Shown here: piece by piece, positions 19,656 to 27,271 of the stretch
Layout of the letters: every line of letters begins with the position of its first letter
How positions within the stretch are numbered: position 1 is the stretch's first letter
Source: Bacillota bacterium
Lineage (GTDB): Bacteria > Bacillota > Sulfobacillia > UBA8153
Direction: 5' to 3'
NCBI GenBank assembly: GCA_007130145.1
Contig: SLSY01000092.1
Location: forward strand, 1 to 33,677
DNA length: 33,677 nucleotides
The notes under the pieces: model-generated
What the model was told of the DNA's origin: nothing
Database searches by the model: none
The model's input: only the letters and a program-made list of their open reading frames with translations
Program-made: the position numbers and the translations under genes

Positions 19656-20215
19656 CTACTCCACCCTCACGCCATTTCTCCCAATACCAGTAACCTCGGT
19701 TCCATCAACACACATTCGTGTTCCGGGCCCATGCAGGTAACCATATTCAAGATAACCCACATATGTAGCCCCATCGGGCCACCGGTAAGGGCCAAAGCCG
19801 TGCCGACCATCATCATGATACTCGCCGGTCTACACTTCGCCATTCGTGAGAAAGCACGTGCCCTGTGCGTGCATCTTTCCGTCTTTTTACTCTCCTATGT
19901 ACATTCGGGTGACTCCATGTATGCCGTGACCGTGTGGTTTTCCCTCCTTATGGTGCCCGAGTATCTCTGGCCGTGTGCGTGTGTATCCGCGCCTTGTCCG
20001 TGAAGTAGACCGTCCTTCCCCTCTCCCCCATAGACATCACCGATCCCTATACCAAATGTCCAAACCAGGATGCCGTATCCATGTGGCTTACTACCACTCA
20101 TCTGACCGGTGTACTTGCGGTTGCACTCAACCAGCTCGCCCTCGTGAGTCGACTCACAACCTCCCATTACCAGTACCATCTGCACAAGAAGTACAAGACC
20201 AGAGTCTTGGGCCAT
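19656..20215 (-). pseudogene. MORN-repeat lipoprotein, inactivated
   Basis: The minus strand encodes a lipoprotein-like N-terminus (hydrophobic stretch then VMGGC) and a series of MORN repeats, but the frame is broken three times. Repeats such as KYTGQMSGSKPHGYG and VYGGEGKDGLLHGQG lie in the first frame. Near 19941-19949 one base appears lost: restoring it joins RYSGTIR to a repeat continuing GKPHGHG in the next frame. That frame then meets TAA (19887-19889) and TAG (19830-19832), each at an aromatic position of a repeat, and continues through GEYHDDGRHGFG and YVGYLEYGYLHGPG to TAG at 19656-19658. MORN proteins often act in membrane-associated assembly; this copy is almost certainly dead. 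The 5' start is uncertain (ATG 20213-20215 or GTG 20266). Confidence 0.75.
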
Positions 20216-20662
20216 TTTGGCTTGGCGTAGAACAAGACGTGCATCGTATGGTAAATCAAAGCACACGGGAACGGCTGAAAACGGTGCTCAAAGCACGGGA
20301 TGAGGAACGGGCTGAGCGTCATGATAAGACGCGTTGCGCCACGTGGGGAAGCGAACGCGCTCGCTGATGACACCACGGGGGGAAGCCCAGTATAGCTCCG
20401 CAGCGGACATAACCCAAGTAGGCAGTCCCAAAGAGTGGTGAGCATCTGTTTGGGGTGTAGGGCATTCCATGAGGAACATAGCGCCTCATACTATGTCAAA
20501 GGAAAGCAGACCCCCACCATGTTCACCGCGTTCCTTGCTTGTGAGCATAGACTCTGTTGAGAACATTCATCCTTCAAAAAAGCCAGGCCTGCTCATCACG
20601 GCGCGCTTGTTTCATCCAAAAGATAGCAAAATACCCTCAAAGATGGACATACATCCGCCCTG
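20216..20662. other. Intergenic region downstream of tatA
   Basis: About 450 bases between tatA and the MORN pseudogene. The open frames are unremarkable. No hairpin strong enough to call a terminator for tatA was found. Confidence 0.45.
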
Positions 20663-20860
20663 CTATTGGGGCTTTTCTTGCTCCTTGTTCTCTTGCTCTT
20701 TTGGATCTTTGGTGGCGTCTTCCATTTCGTTCGCTGCAGAACGAAACTCCCGGAGGCCCCGGCCAATCGCGCGGCCGATCTCCGGCAGACGACTGGGGCC
20801 GAAAATGAGTAAAACAACACCGAGAATAATGAGGAGTTCTGTCGGTCCTAAACCAAACAC
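20663..20860 (-). CDS. tatA: Twin-arginine translocase subunit TatA
   Basis: A 65-residue protein with the full TatA/TatE pattern: a short N-terminal membrane helix (FGLGPTELLIILGVVLLI), the FGPSRLPEIGRAIG hinge and amphipathic helix, and a charged glutamate/lysine-rich tail. It forms the pore-like part of the Tat pathway, which exports folded, cofactor-loaded proteins. The start is GTG (20858-20860), with AAAGGGG upstream. No tatC is visible in the window. It follows rnfC by 276 bases on the same strand as the operon encoding a Tat-exported molybdoenzyme, which it could serve; whether it shares that transcript is unclear because a weak hairpin lies between. Confidence 0.93.
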   Translation of the reverse strand: MFGLGPTELLIILGVVLLIFGPSRLPEIGRAIGRGLREFRSAANEMEDATKDPKEQENKEQEKPQ

Positions 20861-21136: not shown

Positions 21137-22474
21137 CTATGACATATTATCAATCACGGTCTTGGCTCGCTTGACAAAATGCACGATAGGTCTTTGCGAA
21201 GGGCATACGTAGGCACAGACGCCGCATTCGATGCAGTCCCAGATGTCCCATTGTTGCATCTCTTCATACATCCCATACTCGGAAAGAATGCTAAGCTGAT
21301 GAGGGTAGAGCCAGTTCGGACAGCGTTCGACGCATACCCCACAACGCACACAGGCCGTATATGGAACCTGCTCACGCACTAACTCTGAAGGCAGAACCAA
21401 CACACCCGTAGTATTCTTAACCACAGGTACGTTAAGATCGCTTTGTGCCAAACCCGTCATGGGACCACCGAAGATGACCTTATTCCCTGCGAGCTGATTG
21501 GGATCGACACCGGCCTCTCTCAGTATGAAGTCAGCGGGAGTTCCAAGCCGGACAATATAGTTGCCCCGGTTGGGAACCTCAGGTCCGCTCACGGTAATGA
21601 TCCGTTCAATGAAGGGCTTCCCGTGCACCACAGCTTCGTAAACCGCGAAGGTGGTCCCTACATTGCGAACAATGCAGCCCAGTGCAGCAGATCGCGCTCC
21701 CCGAGGTACATCCCGCCCCGTGATGGTCTTGATGAGATAGGATTTGTAACCCTGAGGGTATTTCACTGCCAGCGGTACGACTTCCATGTCTTCACGTGCT
21801 TTTGTTTTTGACGAGAGGATCCTGATGGCGTCGAGCTTATTGCTCTCTATACCGATGAAGGTCTTCTTGGCCCCGATACAGCGCATGAGAATATCGGCGC
21901 CCGTGATGAGCTCATCGGCTCTCTCCACCATCAAGCGATGATCACAGGTTAAGAAAGGCTCGCACTCAGCCCCATTGAGGATGAGCGTATCCACTGGCTG
22001 CCGCGTATTGATATTTACATAGGTTGGGAAGGCAGCACCACCCATGCCGACCAGCCCCGCCTCCTTAATCGCGTCTTTCAATTCCTCAGGAGACATTTGG
22101 TCCGGGTTGTTCTTCGCCACAGGCACAAACTCGCCTTGCTCACCTTTTCCCTCGATGACAACACACTCAACCGCCTCGCCGGCAGGGTGAGTTCGCCTCT
22201 CAATGGCCACAACAGTACCACTAAGAGTTGCGTGTACCGGGGCGCTGATAAATTCCTCTGAATCTCCGATCTTCTGTCCTAGCTGAACTGTAGCTCCCAC
22301 CTGCACCAGGGGCTCACAGGGAGCACCGGAGTGTTGCATGAGGGGCACGATCACTCTGTCGGGAATCGCCATGCGACGGATGGGCACATCATTGGTCAAG
22401 CTCTTGTATTCCGGTATATGCATACCACCGACAAAGGACCTGCCTTCACCTTCTCTCAGAGTTCCTGCGTCCAC
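21137..22474 (-). CDS. rnfC: RnfC-like NADH-binding subunit
   Basis: This 445-residue protein is RnfC, the cytoplasmic subunit of Rnf complexes that binds FMN and NAD(H). It has the N-terminal barrel-sandwich part, the NuoF-like core (GLVGMGGAAFPT, NGAECEPFLTCD), an SLBB-like segment and two [4Fe-4S] motifs, CVRCGVCVERCP (from Cys375) and CIECGVCAYVCP (from Cys414). Length and motifs are those of a complete protein without the long C-terminal repeats of proteobacterial RnfC. The start is GTG (22472-22474) with GGAGGTGA about eight bases upstream. It is the last gene of the torD-molybdoenzyme-FeS-rnfD-rnfC series. RnfA, B, E and G are not in the window, so this is not a standard rnf cluster. 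Expected role: exchange of electrons between NAD(H) and RnfD. Confidence 0.93.
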   Translation of the reverse strand: MDAGTLREGEGRSFVGGMHIPEYKSLTNDVPIRRMAIPDRVIVPLMQHSGAPCEPLVQVGATVQLGQKIGDSEEFISAPVHATLSGTVVAIERRTHPAGEAVECVVIEGKGEQGEFVPVAKNNPDQMSPEELKDAIKEAGLVGMGGAAFPTYVNINTRQPVDTLILNGAECEPFLTCDHRLMVERADELITGADILMRCIGAKKTFIGIESNKLDAIRILSSKTKAREDMEVVPLAVKYPQGYKSYLIKTITGRDVPRGARSAALGCIVRNVGTTFAVYEAVVHGKPFIERIITVSGPEVPNRGNYIVRLGTPADFILREAGVDPNQLAGNKVIFGGPMTGLAQSDLNVPVVKNTTGVLVLPSELVREQVPYTACVRCGVCVERCPNWLYPHQLSILSEYGMYEEMQQWDIWDCIECGVCAYVCPSQRPIVHFVKRAKTVIDNMS

Positions 22475-22589
22475 GCAGCGTCACCTCCAAATTTTCACGA
22501 ACCATGTATAGGGCATGAGCCAAGGTGAGAGCCAACCCGCTCTGAGTCTCAACGATCCCTCCCCCTTTCGAAGGAAGGAAACCGTTCTC
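22446..22589 (-). other. Open frame bridging the rnfD-rnfC gap
   Basis: On the minus strand 47 codons without stop run from just after a TGA (22590-22592) across the 170-base gap and end in TGA (22446-22448), overlapping the start of rnfC in another frame. The translation includes IVETQSGLALTLAHALYMV. It has no ATG, GTG or TTG start with a ribosome site. The SG..T pattern faintly recalls the flavin-binding end of RnfG-type domains, but this may be chance. Confidence 0.15.
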
Positions 22590-22644
22590 TCACACCCCAT
22601 GCCCAAGAGCATCAACTCGGGCCCGCCAAGACCTCACTGTTCAA

Positions 22645-23592
22645 CTATCCCGTGGTGGGAGCACTCACCGGTTCGCTAAAAGAAGCGCGGCGGGTCACCC
22701 GTTCCAAGAGAGGCACGAACGCATTCATGATCAAAATGGAGAAAGCAACGCCCTCCGGAGGCGGGAGAAACAGCCGGAAGATCACCACCAAAACCCCAAT
22801 AGCAAAACCGAATATGAGCTTTCCTTGCTTGGTGATAGGACTGGTCACCCAGTCCGTCGCCATGAAGAAAGCTCCCAGCATGATACCACCGGTCACCAGG
22901 TGTTGTACAGGATTCTGGCCCAAGATGAAAGTCAACACGAATATGCTAGCGAGCATGCTAACAGGAATGTGCCACCGGATGTGTCCCCGGTACAGAAGAA
23001 AAGCTGCTCCCACCAAGAGCGCCAAGGGCGATGTTTCCGACAAAGCCCCTCCGGGGAAGGCGACGAAGAGTTCCCAGGTCGAAGGCATATCCCATCCCTG
23101 GGCTAGTTTCGCCAGGGGCGTGGCCCGGGTCACCGTGTCAACGGACCAATACAGGGGGATTTGGTTCAAGAAAGGAAGAAGCGGGGCCAAGAATATGATA
23201 GCGACGCGACCAAAGAGGGCCGGATTCAAACGATTCCGCCCCAACCCTCCCATCAGTTCCTTGGCCACGCCCACAGCTAGGAACGTAGCTAACATGGCCG
23301 TCAATACCGGAGTCGTGGGAGAGAAAAGGAGTGCCACAAATAGCCCGGTCAGAGCCGCACTGCCATCTGAAAGGGTCACTCGTTGGCCCCGGGCTCGTCG
23401 AAAGACATATTCCGTTGCCAGTGCGGTAACCACGCACAGTGAGATCAGCTTCAACGCAAAGGCATGGTAAAAGTAAACAGACACGGCACTGATGGGTAAA
23501 AGAGCCAGCATCACATCGCGCATGGCTCCCCCCACCGTTCTCTCTAGCTTCAAGTGCGGAGGTGGCGTCACTATCAGCGCGGACTGCTTCAT
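22645..23592 (-). CDS. rnfD: RnfD-like flavin-bearing membrane subunit
   Basis: This 315-residue membrane protein is RnfD (NqrB/RnfD family), with about nine to ten helices. Family marks are the early TLSDGSAALTGL helix, GGLGRNRLNPALFGR and the late GAFFMATDWVTSPIT. The covalent flavin site matches Dxx(S/T)gAT as DTVTRAT, with Thr158 the probable FMN attachment and Arg in place of the usual Gly. In Rnf, RnfD relays electrons between an outward-facing flavin and RnfC and is linked to ion movement. The ATG at 23590-23592 overlaps the stop codon of the Fe-S subunit gene (ATGA), and AGGAGG stands nine bases upstream, so translation is coupled. rnfC follows after 170 bases. No flavin transferase (apbE) gene is in the window. 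Confidence 0.92.
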   Translation of the reverse strand: MKQSALIVTPPPHLKLERTVGGAMRDVMLALLPISAVSVYFYHAFALKLISLCVVTALATEYVFRRARGQRVTLSDGSAALTGLFVALLFSPTTPVLTAMLATFLAVGVAKELMGGLGRNRLNPALFGRVAIIFLAPLLPFLNQIPLYWSVDTVTRATPLAKLAQGWDMPSTWELFVAFPGGALSETSPLALLVGAAFLLYRGHIRWHIPVSMLASIFVLTFILGQNPVQHLVTGGIMLGAFFMATDWVTSPITKQGKLIFGFAIGVLVVIFRLFLPPPEGVAFSILIMNAFVPLLERVTRRASFSEPVSAPTTG

Positions 23593-24389
23593 GAAGCATC
23601 TCCTCCTAGGTCAACCTTTTTTTCCGATGCATCCGTGTTCTTCTTGCCCTGCTCCAGGGCAACCTGCTTCGTTCTTTCCATGAAACGCGTGTGCAGGTAG
23701 TTGGTCCCCATAACCAGCCCGGCAGCAACCAAGACGGCCGGGGTAAGCGGGATCATCCGCCATAGTCTCAAGCCCAGGGGGATGCGGGGGTCCGGGGGAA
23801 GTCCATAGCTTTGCGGTGCATCGCTAAGTACGGTAATCACTTGGAGACCACCCAACTCCTCTTCCCCATATATGGTAGCGTTGGCATATCCTTGTTCCAG
23901 CAACCTCTTTCGTCTTTCCTTGGCCTTGGCTATCATGCGGGAGCGTTCGCCAAACTCAATCACACGGGAAGTGCAAACCTCGACACACAACGGTTGCAGA
24001 CCATCGCGAATTCGCACCAAACAGAGGTCACATTTCTCCATGGTCCTGGTGGAGCGGTCATAATTGATCGCTCCATACGGACAGTTGGCGACGCAATAAT
24101 TGCAAGTTATGCACAGGCGTTGGTCGAGGACTGTAAGCTTATCAGGGGTCTTTTGTAAAGCACGAGTCGGGCAGGCCATCACACATGCAGCTTCACGACA
24201 ATGCTGGCACGCTCGCTTATTATAACCAACCTTTACGCTGGGGAACACCCCGGTTTCCTCCCGGTCGATCTTCGTCCGGAAGACGCCCGTGGATACCCCG
24301 TACACGGATTTACATACCGTGGTGCACGCTTCACATCCCACGCAAAGGGATTGATCAATGAGCATAACGGGCTGTTCTACCACTGCCAT
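23589..24389 (-). CDS. 4x[4Fe-4S] electron-transfer subunit with membrane anchor
   Basis: This 266-residue protein is the DmsB/PsrB/FdnH-type iron-sulfur subunit of a complex iron-sulfur molybdoenzyme. Sixteen cysteines form four cluster motifs starting at Cys16, Cys61, Cys93 and Cys120; the last is CDLC...CVEVC. A C-terminal extension has one membrane helix (about 213-231) and a charged tail, as in the formate dehydrogenase-N beta subunit. No NrfD/DmsC-type membrane subunit is encoded nearby. The ATG at 24387-24389 is preferred (GGAGG ten bases upstream) over an in-frame ATG three codons earlier. It lies between the catalytic subunit gene (33-base gap) and rnfD (4-base overlap). It would pass electrons between the molybdopterin subunit and the membrane, here presumably RnfD (inference). 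It lacks its own Tat signal and should be co-exported. Confidence 0.93.
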   Translation of the reverse strand: MAVVEQPVMLIDQSLCVGCEACTTVCKSVYGVSTGVFRTKIDREETGVFPSVKVGYNKRACQHCREAACVMACPTRALQKTPDKLTVLDQRLCITCNYCVANCPYGAINYDRSTRTMEKCDLCLVRIRDGLQPLCVEVCTSRVIEFGERSRMIAKAKERRKRLLEQGYANATIYGEEELGGLQVITVLSDAPQSYGLPPDPRIPLGLRLWRMIPLTPAVLVAAGLVMGTNYLHTRFMERTKQVALEQGKKNTDASEKKVDLGGDAS

Positions 24390-24422
24390 CGGTCCCATTC
24401 CTCCTTTCCGCTTCGGTGCTTA

Positions 24423-26693
24423 TCATGCTTTGTATACTTTGACTCCGAAGTCTGTCATGCAGGCACCCATGCCAGGGTCACGCAGTTTCCGCATCTCGGC
24501 AAACGTCATGTCAGGAATCAGGTCGCCATCATTGGCTCCCACTTGATAGGCCCGGGTCATATCGCGGCTCCAATGACCAAAACCGTGAACCACCTGCACG
24601 CAGTCGGGTCGGATTCCCTCAATGAGTCGAGCCTTTAACTTGATTCTCCCAACTCGGGATTCCACGTAAACCTCATCGCCATGGCGTATACCGAGTTTCT
24701 GACCGAGTTTCGCATTCATCGTAGCAAAATTCTCAGGGTACACTTCCATGATCAAGCGGTTGTTCTGAGTCTGTGTCATCTTGTGCATAGCCGGTCGCCC
24801 AATGAGAAAGTGGTACGGATATTCAACCGATGGTTGTTCCCTTCTCGGGGCCCAGTAGGGCAAGGGATCATATCCTGCCTCTTCCAACACCGTGGAATAA
24901 AGTTCAATCTTGCCGCTGGGGGTGTTGAACTCCGTCCGGGGTTGGAATGGCTGCCGATCCTCCCAAATACCCGTGGGGCTGTTGGTCAGTTCATCCCAGG
25001 AAGTTCCAATGGCCCGGAGCTGCGCATCAGTGAACTCAGCACCGGATACACCCCGGAAATACTCCCCATAGCCCATGGCCTCGGCCAGTTGCATGACAAT
25101 GGTCCCAAATCCCCGGGTTTCATGCAAGGGCGCAACCGCTGGTAACCGAACCGCGATTTGGGGGTACGTGCTGTGATACGAACGGGCTCCAAAGCCAGAT
25201 ATCTCCAACCAGTGGGGTTCGGGAAGAACCACGTCGGCCAAGTGAGCCATGTTGGAGGGATAGATTTCACAACACACCATGAAATCAAGGCTGGCCAATG
25301 CTTCTGTGGCCCTAACGGCATGGGGAAAAGACGTGGTGTTATAGCCTCGTACCAGCGCTGCCTTCAAAGGGTAGGGCTCCTCATTGAGAATGCCATGAGC
25401 CAACGTGGCAAAGTTGCCTTGGATACTCCCCTGGAAGAAGGGATTATCCTGTTCCCAGCCATCAATGCGCTCCCGTCTTGGCGTTGGATAGGCCGGTGGA
25501 GGAAAGACTGCATCCAGACCGGGCATACTCGGATTGCGAGGCAACGTCGTCCCCCCCGGACGATCAATGGTTCCAACCAGTGCATTGAGGATGATCTGCG
25601 CCTGGGCTAGTTTCCAACTATTGGAATAATTCGGACCCGCTCCATCCCGCTTGTGACTTGGGATGTGAGCCGGAGAAGTGCTGGCAAACTCACGGGCTAT
25701 ACGGACGATGGTCTCAGCATCGATACCGGTTATCTCAGCGGCCCATCCCGGCGTATATTCCTTGGCGAAGTGGCGTAATTTATCCATGCCGAAGGTGAAC
25801 TCATCAACGAATGCGCTGTCATAGCTCTTTTCTTCGATAATGACATGGATCATGGCCAAACAGAAGGCCAGATCTGTGCCCGGGACAATGGGGTGCCACT
25901 CATGAGCCTTGGAGGCCGTGACCGACTTATAGGGGTCAAGAATGACCATCCTTGCCCCTCGCTCTAAAGCACGGGTGGCATTGCGCACATGAGGATTCTT
26001 GCCTTTCCCCAGCCCATCCCAACCAAAGCCCAGGATGTAACGGGTATTCTCGATATCGTACGTCCACGGCTTGGCACCGCCGGTCACCATGGCTCGCCAC
26101 GCCGCTTGCTGCGTCGTAAAGCACGTCGACTGGTGGGCCACAAAGTTGGGCGTACCGATAGCCCTTCCTAAGCGTACCGAATAAGGATTGCTGCGTGAAA
26201 GCACCATGAAGGACTCCGGGCCATATTCAGCGATGACTCTGCTTAACCCCTCAGCCGCCCGTTCAATGGCTTCGTCCCAGGATATCTTGACAAAGCCCGG
26301 GTCCTCTCCCATTCCCTTGCGGGGATTGGTCCTTTTCATGGGAAACTTGGCTCGGTCAGGGTCATATAAGGTCGCAAGCGCGGTATGCCCTTTGACGCAA
26401 AGCCGTCCCCCTGCTCCTTGTGGATCAAAGGGATCTCCTGCGGCAAAATCATGAGGATTCCCGGCCAGATGCACCAACCGGCCACGATCAACATAGGCTT
26501 TGAGCCCACAGTTGGCACTGCAGACACTACAGTAGGTATGGACCATCTTCTCAGACTCTTCCACGATCCCTTCCCGGGTTCCACTCTTAACAAACGCAGG
26601 AACGGATATCCCCGTTCCCATTGCGATCCCCGTCCCCAGCGCCATCTTAAGGAAACCACGTCGATTTAGGCTGTAGTCGCTAGGTTTGGTCAT
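24423..26693 (-). CDS. Molybdopterin oxidoreductase catalytic subunit (Psr/Phs-type)
   Basis: This 756-residue protein is a DMSO-reductase-superfamily catalytic subunit. A twin-arginine signal (RRGFLK, Arg11-Arg12) directs export of the folded enzyme. The N-terminal [4Fe-4S] site is Cys55, Cys58, Cys62 and Cys99 (CSVCSANC ... RLCVKGH). HQSTC places Cys191 at the molybdenum-ligand position, as in polysulfide, thiosulfate and related reductases; selenocysteine is not used. The C-terminal molybdopterin-dinucleotide domain ends with GVKVYKA. The ATG at 26691-26693 overlaps the TorD-like stop codon (ATGA), with GGGAGG eleven bases upstream. The substrate cannot be read: a sulfur compound is plausible, arsenic or selenium oxyanions cannot be excluded. 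It is encoded with a dedicated chaperone, an Fe-S subunit, RnfD and RnfC. Confidence 0.94.
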   Translation of the reverse strand: MTKPSDYSLNRRGFLKMALGTGIAMGTGISVPAFVKSGTREGIVEESEKMVHTYCSVCSANCGLKAYVDRGRLVHLAGNPHDFAAGDPFDPQGAGGRLCVKGHTALATLYDPDRAKFPMKRTNPRKGMGEDPGFVKISWDEAIERAAEGLSRVIAEYGPESFMVLSRSNPYSVRLGRAIGTPNFVAHQSTCFTTQQAAWRAMVTGGAKPWTYDIENTRYILGFGWDGLGKGKNPHVRNATRALERGARMVILDPYKSVTASKAHEWHPIVPGTDLAFCLAMIHVIIEEKSYDSAFVDEFTFGMDKLRHFAKEYTPGWAAEITGIDAETIVRIAREFASTSPAHIPSHKRDGAGPNYSNSWKLAQAQIILNALVGTIDRPGGTTLPRNPSMPGLDAVFPPPAYPTPRRERIDGWEQDNPFFQGSIQGNFATLAHGILNEEPYPLKAALVRGYNTTSFPHAVRATEALASLDFMVCCEIYPSNMAHLADVVLPEPHWLEISGFGARSYHSTYPQIAVRLPAVAPLHETRGFGTIVMQLAEAMGYGEYFRGVSGAEFTDAQLRAIGTSWDELTNSPTGIWEDRQPFQPRTEFNTPSGKIELYSTVLEEAGYDPLPYWAPRREQPSVEYPYHFLIGRPAMHKMTQTQNNRLIMEVYPENFATMNAKLGQKLGIRHGDEVYVESRVGRIKLKARLIEGIRPDCVQVVHGFGHWSRDMTRAYQVGANDGDLIPDMTFAEMRKLRDPGMGACMTDFGVKVYKA

Positions 26694-27271
26694 GAATCCA
26701 TTTTCCTCCCTTCAAAATCCCATGGCGGACTGTGATTGTGATGCACCCGCTTCTCCCTCGCGAGAAAACGGCGTCCGTACTCAGCAACCGAACCATAGAA
26801 GTCCGCGTAACGATGACTCGCTATATCCTCCAACAACTGTGGGATCCACGTGCTCACATGTTGCTGAAAGAAACGAGCCGCTTCTGTTGTGGCACCATCA
26901 CCTCTTAAGTGAGCCATAAAAGATAGTTCCACCGCTGCATGGTCTTCTGGCAAAGGTGAACGTTCCAATTGCCAACCGGAGCGACGATAGAAATCCCTTA
27001 CCTGCACCCACGGTTCTTGCATGAGCAAGGGCTCAGTACCTCGGTAAATCGACTCATACGGTTTGACCCCACCCGGCAATAAGAAGAGACGAGCAAATTC
27101 TCGTTTCACAAGCATGGCATGTTCATCCTTATCCAACCACTGCTCAACCTTGTGCAGCAACGGTCGAACCATGGAATCACTGCTCTCGTCTTGGAGCACG
27201 GCGTTCAAGTCCTCCAGGGCCACCGCATCCGCCAAGAGCCCGGATAACAACGCATAATGCACGGAGAACAC
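26690..27271 (-). CDS. TorD/DmsD-family molybdoenzyme chaperone
   Basis: This 193-residue, mostly helical protein has the TorD-family pattern: EFARLFLLPGGVKPYESIYRG in the first half and LPEDHAAVELSFMAHL in the middle, where the PxDH and E.EFM-type motifs lie. Such chaperones bind the Tat signal of the catalytic subunit and hold it until cofactor insertion. The start is GTG (27269-27271) with GAGG upstream. It is the first gene of the operon and overlaps the catalytic subunit gene by four bases, so the two are translationally coupled, as expected for a dedicated chaperone. A short inverted repeat lies 23 bases upstream of its start. Confidence 0.9.
   Translation of the reverse strand: MFSVHYALLSGLLADAVALEDLNAVLQDESSDSMVRPLLHKVEQWLDKDEHAMLVKREFARLFLLPGGVKPYESIYRGTEPLLMQEPWVQVRDFYRRSGWQLERSPLPEDHAAVELSFMAHLRGDGATTEAARFFQQHVSTWIPQLLEDIASHRYADFYGSVAEYGRRFLAREKRVHHNHSPPWDFEGRKMDS

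Follow-up and report, generated by a model that had tools for sequence, protein, structure and literature searches.

A molybdoenzyme operon with RnfC and RnfD, a putative quinone-free link between NAD(H) and an exported enzyme

The operon and its gene products

The window, by which we mean the whole 33,677-nucleotide stretch of DNA analyzed here, comes from a Bacillota metagenome-assembled genome (MAG; 2.37 Mb, 96% complete, 258 contigs), referred to below as the host. Five of its genes, all on the minus strand, encode a TorD-like chaperone, a molybdenum (Mo) subunit, a 4x[4Fe-4S] (FeS) subunit, RnfD, and RnfC, as established from open reading frames (ORFs) and Pfam and NCBIfam matches. The features of the locus are as follows.

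26690..27271, minus strand: TorD/DmsD-like chaperone for a Mo enzyme (PF02613, 6e-22; NCBIfam TorD match below the cut-off)
24423..26693, minus strand: Tat-exported Mo-bisPGD catalytic subunit of Psr/Phs type (Tat motif NRRGFLK; Cys ligand of Mo in HQSTCF)
23589..24398, minus strand: 4x[4Fe-4S] electron-transfer subunit, FdnH-like, with a predicted C-terminal membrane helix (conservation, model, fold match)
22645..23592, minus strand: RnfD of the half-Rnf clade, putative transmembrane flavin conduit (TIGR01946, PDB 9eri_D/7zc6_D, conservation, tree)
22475..22644, minus strand: rnfD-rnfC gap of 170 bases (ribosome site GGAGGTGA; no terminator-like site)
21137..22474, minus strand: RnfC of the half-Rnf clade, NAD(H)/FMN and 2x[4Fe-4S] cytoplasmic subunit (TIGR01945, PDB 9eri_C, tree)
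20663..20860, minus strand: TatA-like subunit of the Tat translocase (PF02416, 2.6e-21)

Four-base overlaps join the TorD and Mo genes and the FeS and RnfD genes, and between the Mo and FeS genes lie 24 bases if the listed start is used, or 33 when counted from an ATG three codons in. Neither RnfA, B, E, or G nor NrfD was found among the ORFs examined at the locus. In all of these respects (five same-strand genes and their order, the overlaps and the 33-base gap, the missing subunits), a first-pass annotation made from the sequence had described the locus correctly; it missed the TatA-like gene and the membrane helix at the C-terminus of the FeS subunit. The ribosome site in the rnfD-rnfC gap is a strong one and precedes the GTG start of rnfC. 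The absence of a terminator-like site from this gap is the only result we use from the terminator scan, since its matches lie nearly all within coding regions, and promoter matches did not exceed the shuffled expectation. We count the 170-base gap itself against certainty of co-transcription.

Below, half-Rnf denotes an RnfC-RnfD pair without RnfA/B/E. The TatA-like gene lies 276 bases downstream of rnfC and is probably accessory to the operon; in two relatives (L012 and L046), TatC lies upstream. Between the operon and the next genes of the window is a short ORF with MORN-like Gly/Tyr repeats (19895-20266, minus strand), which may be a decayed gene; the region around it has poor coding potential.

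The nearest NCBIfam model to the Mo subunit is PhsA, at 415 bits and thus below the cut-off of 694, and the FdnG-type (formate dehydrogenase-N) model gives only 92 bits against a cut-off of 814. The best PDB match is the polysulfide reductase PsrA (2vpw, 1e-92), with the Cys ligand of Mo aligned. In the FeS subunit, 16 Cys are invariant among 17 relatives. A fold search with its structural model (pLDDT 83) returned E. coli FdnH (1kqf_B) as the best match over 255 columns and PsrB as the second, and as modeled, the subunit carries an FdnH-like C-terminal membrane anchor.

RnfC scores 498 bits against TIGR01945 (cut-off 246) and matches PDB 9eri_C at 2e-102. RnfD, a protein of 315 amino acids with PF03116 as its only domain and RnfC encoded separately, scores 255 bits against TIGR01946 (cut-off 207), and its model aligns to solved RnfD chains with a TM score of 0.84. 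The A. woodii RnfD binds FMN covalently on T156 and holds riboflavin with N123 and D249 (Kumar et al. 2025, PMC11889175). Alignment to that protein places Thr158 of the window RnfD at the covalent FMN site, and Asn123 and Asp247 at the riboflavin site.

Half-Rnf loci and their partner enzymes

Searching one genome per GTDB species with the window RnfD as query gave 79 loci, about 50 of which have RnfC-RnfD without RnfA/B/E. On the RnfD tree (99 rows), 55 half-Rnf rows, the window included, fall within one branch with support of 100/98, and every full-Rnf RnfD falls outside it. The RnfC tree has the same split between half and full (94/99, in 96% of bootstrap trees). No RnfA/B/E gene lies beside the half-Rnf genes at any locus examined. 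The window belongs with these loci: its RnfC and RnfD are of the half clades, an exported redox enzyme is adjacent, and RnfA/B/E are not. Its recurrence across dozens of genomes puts the arrangement well outside what chance could produce.

Within the half clades, the cofactor residues are conserved. The riboflavin Asn and Asp are invariant in 55/55 half RnfD, at the flavin position 51 of these have Thr and 4 have Ser, and all eight cluster Cys are kept in RnfC. The clades also have marks of their own, Glu112 in RnfD (55/55) and Cys177 and Thr340 in RnfC (46/46). ApbE adjoins half-Rnf in four actinobacterial loci (L043, L048, L051, and L055). The C-terminal tail of RnfC after the last Cys was considered as an indicator that contact with RnfB had been lost, and was dropped when half and full sequences overlapped with no clear difference. 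An in-frame TAA interrupts the half-Rnf RnfD translation of L040 (8001-8948) and of L093, whose RnfD is identical; this may be a pseudogene, an assembly error, or an overrun of the end.

The members are mainly Bacillota (many soda-lake Syntrophomonadaceae, Tindallia, and Anoxynatronum) and Actinomycetota (Geothermincolaceae and kin). Most are MAG contigs, and we infer that the MAG names Desulfovibrio (L029) and Dehalococcoidia (L022 and L033) may be binning errors. Two further loci, L069 and L073, were rejected as half-Rnf: they are full clusters cut by contig ends and are placed in full-Rnf clades. At four loci (L022, L027, L033, and L013), opposite-strand genes for Mrp/NuoL-type antiporter subunits follow the half-Rnf, which suggests that NADH-driven chemistry is linked with Na+ handling in the soda-lake forms.

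The commonest half-Rnf partner is a formate dehydrogenase (FDH), not a molybdoenzyme of the Phs type. The neighbor map counts FdnG-type selenocysteine (Sec) formate dehydrogenase-N at 33 loci, Phs-like enzymes at 8 (window included), and NiFe hydrogenase at 2. The FdnG-type gene at half-Rnf loci is split at an in-frame UGA, and when TGA is read as Sec, the three FDH partners tested (3/3) exceed the TIGR01553 cut-off (formate dehydrogenase-N alpha). Both NiFe hydrogenase partners are above their family cut-off; in L059 (2295-7920) and L029 (6551-12697), a Tat-bearing small subunit and the large subunit of the hydrogenase adjoin RnfC-RnfD, and the FeS subunit of L029 has a Tat-like signal of its own. 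Gene orders vary while the linkage is kept, with FDH-FeS-C-D, C-D-FDH-FeS, Phs-FeS-D-C, and Hyd-C-D all present. One locus, L008, reads TatC-FeS-RnfC-RnfD with no Mo gene in between, and we count it against assigning these genes to a single complex; another, L042, has only RnfG-C-D, and at the remaining half-Rnf loci, the neighbors are cut by contig ends.

The history of these associations appears to be one of exchange. Partner labels on the RnfD tree require at least 5 changes, of which the Phs-like group accounts for 3 or more. On the Mo tree, RnfCD-linked Phs-like subunits form their own clade (support 100/100), apart from same-class relatives such as L110, where a cytochrome b of the formate-dehydrogenase-gamma type takes the place of RnfCD. 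The Mo tree groups the window with L036/L039, and the RnfD and RnfC trees do not. This conflict indicates that the module was exchanged while the association was kept, which in turn argues for function. A Mo subunit 75% identical to that of the window is encoded alongside TorD in a different family of the host's class (G005:C81, L115, 3749-5445), on a contig that ends inside the gene, leaving neighbors such as RnfCD out of view.

The first-pass annotation had read RnfD and RnfC as a separate half-Rnf tied to an exported redox enzyme, and so far as sequences can speak to it, this reading is well supported by the separate clades, the recurring partners, and the kept flavin and Fe-S residues. It also came through a search among relatives for rnfG, rnfE, rnfA, and rnfB directly adjacent to each other with the Mo enzyme unlinked. 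Its picture of a recombination of two known complexes stands as regards modularity, but not as a single event with a molybdoenzyme, given that FDH is the commonest partner and hydrogenases occur as well.

A putative route between NAD(H) and the exported enzyme

We think it quite probable that the products of the five genes assemble into a single membrane-bound complex, with RnfC-RnfD acting as a plug-in, quinone-free conduit between NAD(H) and the extracytoplasmic enzyme. Electrons would pass from NADH to RnfC (FMN and two [4Fe-4S] clusters) and on to RnfD, where riboflavin would sit near the cytoplasm and the covalent FMN on Thr158 near the outside. From there, they would enter the FdnH-like subunit, which would be anchored next to RnfD, pass through its four [4Fe-4S] clusters, and finally reach the [4Fe-4S] cluster and Mo cofactor of the exported subunit. 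The path could run in either direction. Electrons would cross the membrane once, as opposed to making the U-turn of full Rnf, so the transfer would be electrogenic without an ion pump, and run in reverse, the path would be a redox half-loop that conserves energy.

If the Phs-like enzyme is a thiosulfate reductase, all three partner types act on couples (formate, H2, and thiosulfate) whose textbook potentials are about -400 to -430 mV, just below NADH. With outer couples below NAD such as these, outward flow would spend membrane potential and inward flow would build it. Arithmetic from textbook potentials gives about +16 to +22 kJ/mol for the reduction of thiosulfate, H+, or CO2 outside by NADH; a potential of 150 mV, inside negative, brings these NADH-driven reductions to -7 to -13 kJ/mol by simple arithmetic. 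Thiosulfate, more than tetrathionate or arsenate, is suggested as the predicted substrate of the window enzyme by the low potential of the formate and H2 couples, both just below NAD. Our guess from family and thermodynamics is that what this enzyme reduces outside is most likely a sulfur compound, either thiosulfate, pulled by the potential, or polysulfide.

We also lean, with less assurance, toward a broader interpretation, in which RnfC-RnfD would be a general, exchangeable, quinone-free half-loop, single-crossing and electrogenic, that docks on an extracytoplasmic FDH, a Phs-like enzyme, or a hydrogenase. If true, such a half-loop would use the membrane potential to drive electrons from NADH to outer acceptors of low potential, or build that potential in reverse, and would provide syntrophs and formate producers with a device for reverse electron transport.

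A quinone-linked route is unlikely in the host, since neither a UbiA-family gene (control positive in 14/14 genomes) nor NrfD (PF03916; control positive in 4 genomes) was found anywhere in the MAG, with the caveat that the MAG is 96% complete and in 258 contigs. The quinone-free NAD(H) link of the first-pass annotation is upheld to this extent; its suggestion of ion pumping by RnfD is disfavored (PMC11889175).

Could electrons of the enzyme reach RnfD by way of a mobile flavoprotein, RnfG-like or other, whose gene lies elsewhere, with half-Rnf serving as a general conduit from NAD(H) to the envelope, like the NQR/RNF-like systems? The host does have an unlinked RnfG (175 amino acids, contig C48) and a two-domain FMN_bind lipoprotein-like protein (contig C201), one locus (L042) consists of RnfG-RnfC-RnfD only, with no exported enzyme beside it, and the portions of Timmers et al. 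(2018, PMC6295475) that concern a soda-lake syntroph list RnfC, RnfD, and two RnfG. However, almost all half loci are without RnfG and have a membrane-anchored FdnH-like FeS subunit instead. The unlinked RnfG also has another likely use: the full Rnf cluster of the host (contig C204, order RnfC-D-E-A-B-ApbE) has no G and hence needs it, and the C48 protein probably belongs there. We regard a mobile flavoprotein as unlikely.

At L042 (5893-8972), found in a Dethiobacter MAG, the downstream ORFs include one that is cytochrome-b-like and a short one that carries a heme-like motif. As for full clusters, rnfD is followed directly by rnfE with no rnfG between them in the host (L005, G000:C204, 9565-15164) and also in several families of its class (L097, L100, L102, and L104-L106), and the order rnfCDEAB is on record for Limnochordia (PMC11456536).

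Full Rnf is common in these genomes, which raises a second alternative: that RnfC-RnfD are spare copies that assemble with A/B/E/G of the full Rnf, their proximity to the Mo operon being incidental. Half and full subunits are homologous, and 28 of the 32 half-Rnf genomes have a full-length RnfA/E match elsewhere, as does the host on contig C204. Yet the other four have no complete RnfA/E gene (two without a match, two with fragments), and the full Rnf is generally provided for. With respect to INDEPENDENCE from full Rnf, an RnfD distinct from the half-Rnf RnfD lies <4 kb from RnfA/E in 25 of the 28 genomes. In the host, C204 holds a second RnfD and the only RnfA/E pair, and since RnfC and RnfD are both encoded in this cluster, the pair in the window is an extra one. 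The separate clades of half RnfC and half RnfD, and a linkage to exported enzymes that recurs despite partner swaps and varied gene orders, also speak against spare copies, which we consider very unlikely. We likewise rejected a split-operon variant, in which half-Rnf supplies C/D to a distant RnfABEG, because 25/28 RnfA/E loci are accompanied by an RnfD of their own. Several half-Rnf genomes also encode a third kind of RnfD (L129-L134), ~285 amino acids long and standing alone, with neither RnfC nor any other Rnf gene as an immediate neighbor; a ferritin-like gene is often close by.

Least probable is that RnfD pumps Na+ or H+ during electron passage, on top of the transfer of electron charge: for NQR, ions have been proposed to pass through NqrB/RnfD (see PMC12174285), but mutants and simulations of A. 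woodii RnfD give no Na+ pathway, leaving RnfD with electron transfer only and pumping with RnfA/E (Kumar et al. 2025, PMC11889175), which are absent here, and electron transfer with a single crossing conserves energy already.

Relation to known systems

The complex that we favor, with RnfC-RnfD joined to an exported enzyme, shares parts with several known systems. Its RnfC and RnfD are homologous over their full length to those of Rnf (RnfABCDEG), with the same fold and cofactor residues. In contrast to Rnf, the locus is without RnfA, B, E, and G, and without the ferredoxin site and the Na+-pumping subunits, its sequences form a separate clade, and the inferred single crossing differs from the Rnf path. 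FdnGHI resembles half-Rnf loci in that the commonest partner is FdnG-type and the window FeS subunit models as FdnH with a membrane helix, but RnfD-RnfC stand in place of the FdnI cytochrome b and its quinone site, and the window catalytic subunit is Phs-like, not FdnG. That subunit is nearest PsrA/PhsA, and PsrB is the second-best fold for the FeS subunit, whereas the NrfD/PsrC or PhsC quinol subunit of PsrABC/PhsABC is lacking in the window, where the FeS subunit would have a membrane helix of its own and RnfC/RnfD are linked.

The NQR/RNF-like systems (Meheust et al. 2021, PMC8238504; PMC10979944, a 2024 preprint on flavinylation) also move electrons one way across the membrane, connecting NAD(P)H with an outer acceptor by means of an NqrB/RnfD homologue. 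In those systems, RnfD is fused to an NqrF-type NAD domain, has an RnfG-like partner, and lacks the RnfD flavin Thr (PMC8238504; PMC10979944); in the window, RnfC is separate and the flavin Thr is kept, and the outer partner in half-Rnf is a Mo or NiFe enzyme. The defining pair of features, an RnfD-NqrF NAD-domain fusion and an FMN_bind protein, does not occur in the window.

Closest in setting is "Ca. Syntrophonatronum acetioxidans," one of the type of soda-lake syntroph in which many of the half-Rnf loci here are found. The relevant portions of its description report RnfC, RnfD, and two RnfG without A, B, and E under the name of incomplete Rnf, and treat it there as classical Rnf with three subunits found, making no tie to an exported formate dehydrogenase (PMC6295475). 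In the open-access full-text literature, a scope outside which subscription papers and most preprints fall, we found no prior description of an FDH, Phs-like enzyme, or hydrogenase joined to RnfCD.

These loci imply that Rnf can be split into halves, and annotations of "incomplete Rnf" in MAGs may conceal half-Rnf. If our reading is right, half-Rnf would give cells a means of making or spending membrane energy that has drawn little notice, as well as a candidate route by which quinone-free syntrophs and haloalkaliphilic acetogens re-oxidize NADH through formate or H2 production outside, a long-standing question. The isolate Anoxynatronum buryatiense has half-Rnf in both its FDH and its Phs-like form (L010 and L012), which makes this reading testable; FDH-RnfCD is also found in two Tindallia genomes (L018 and L019).
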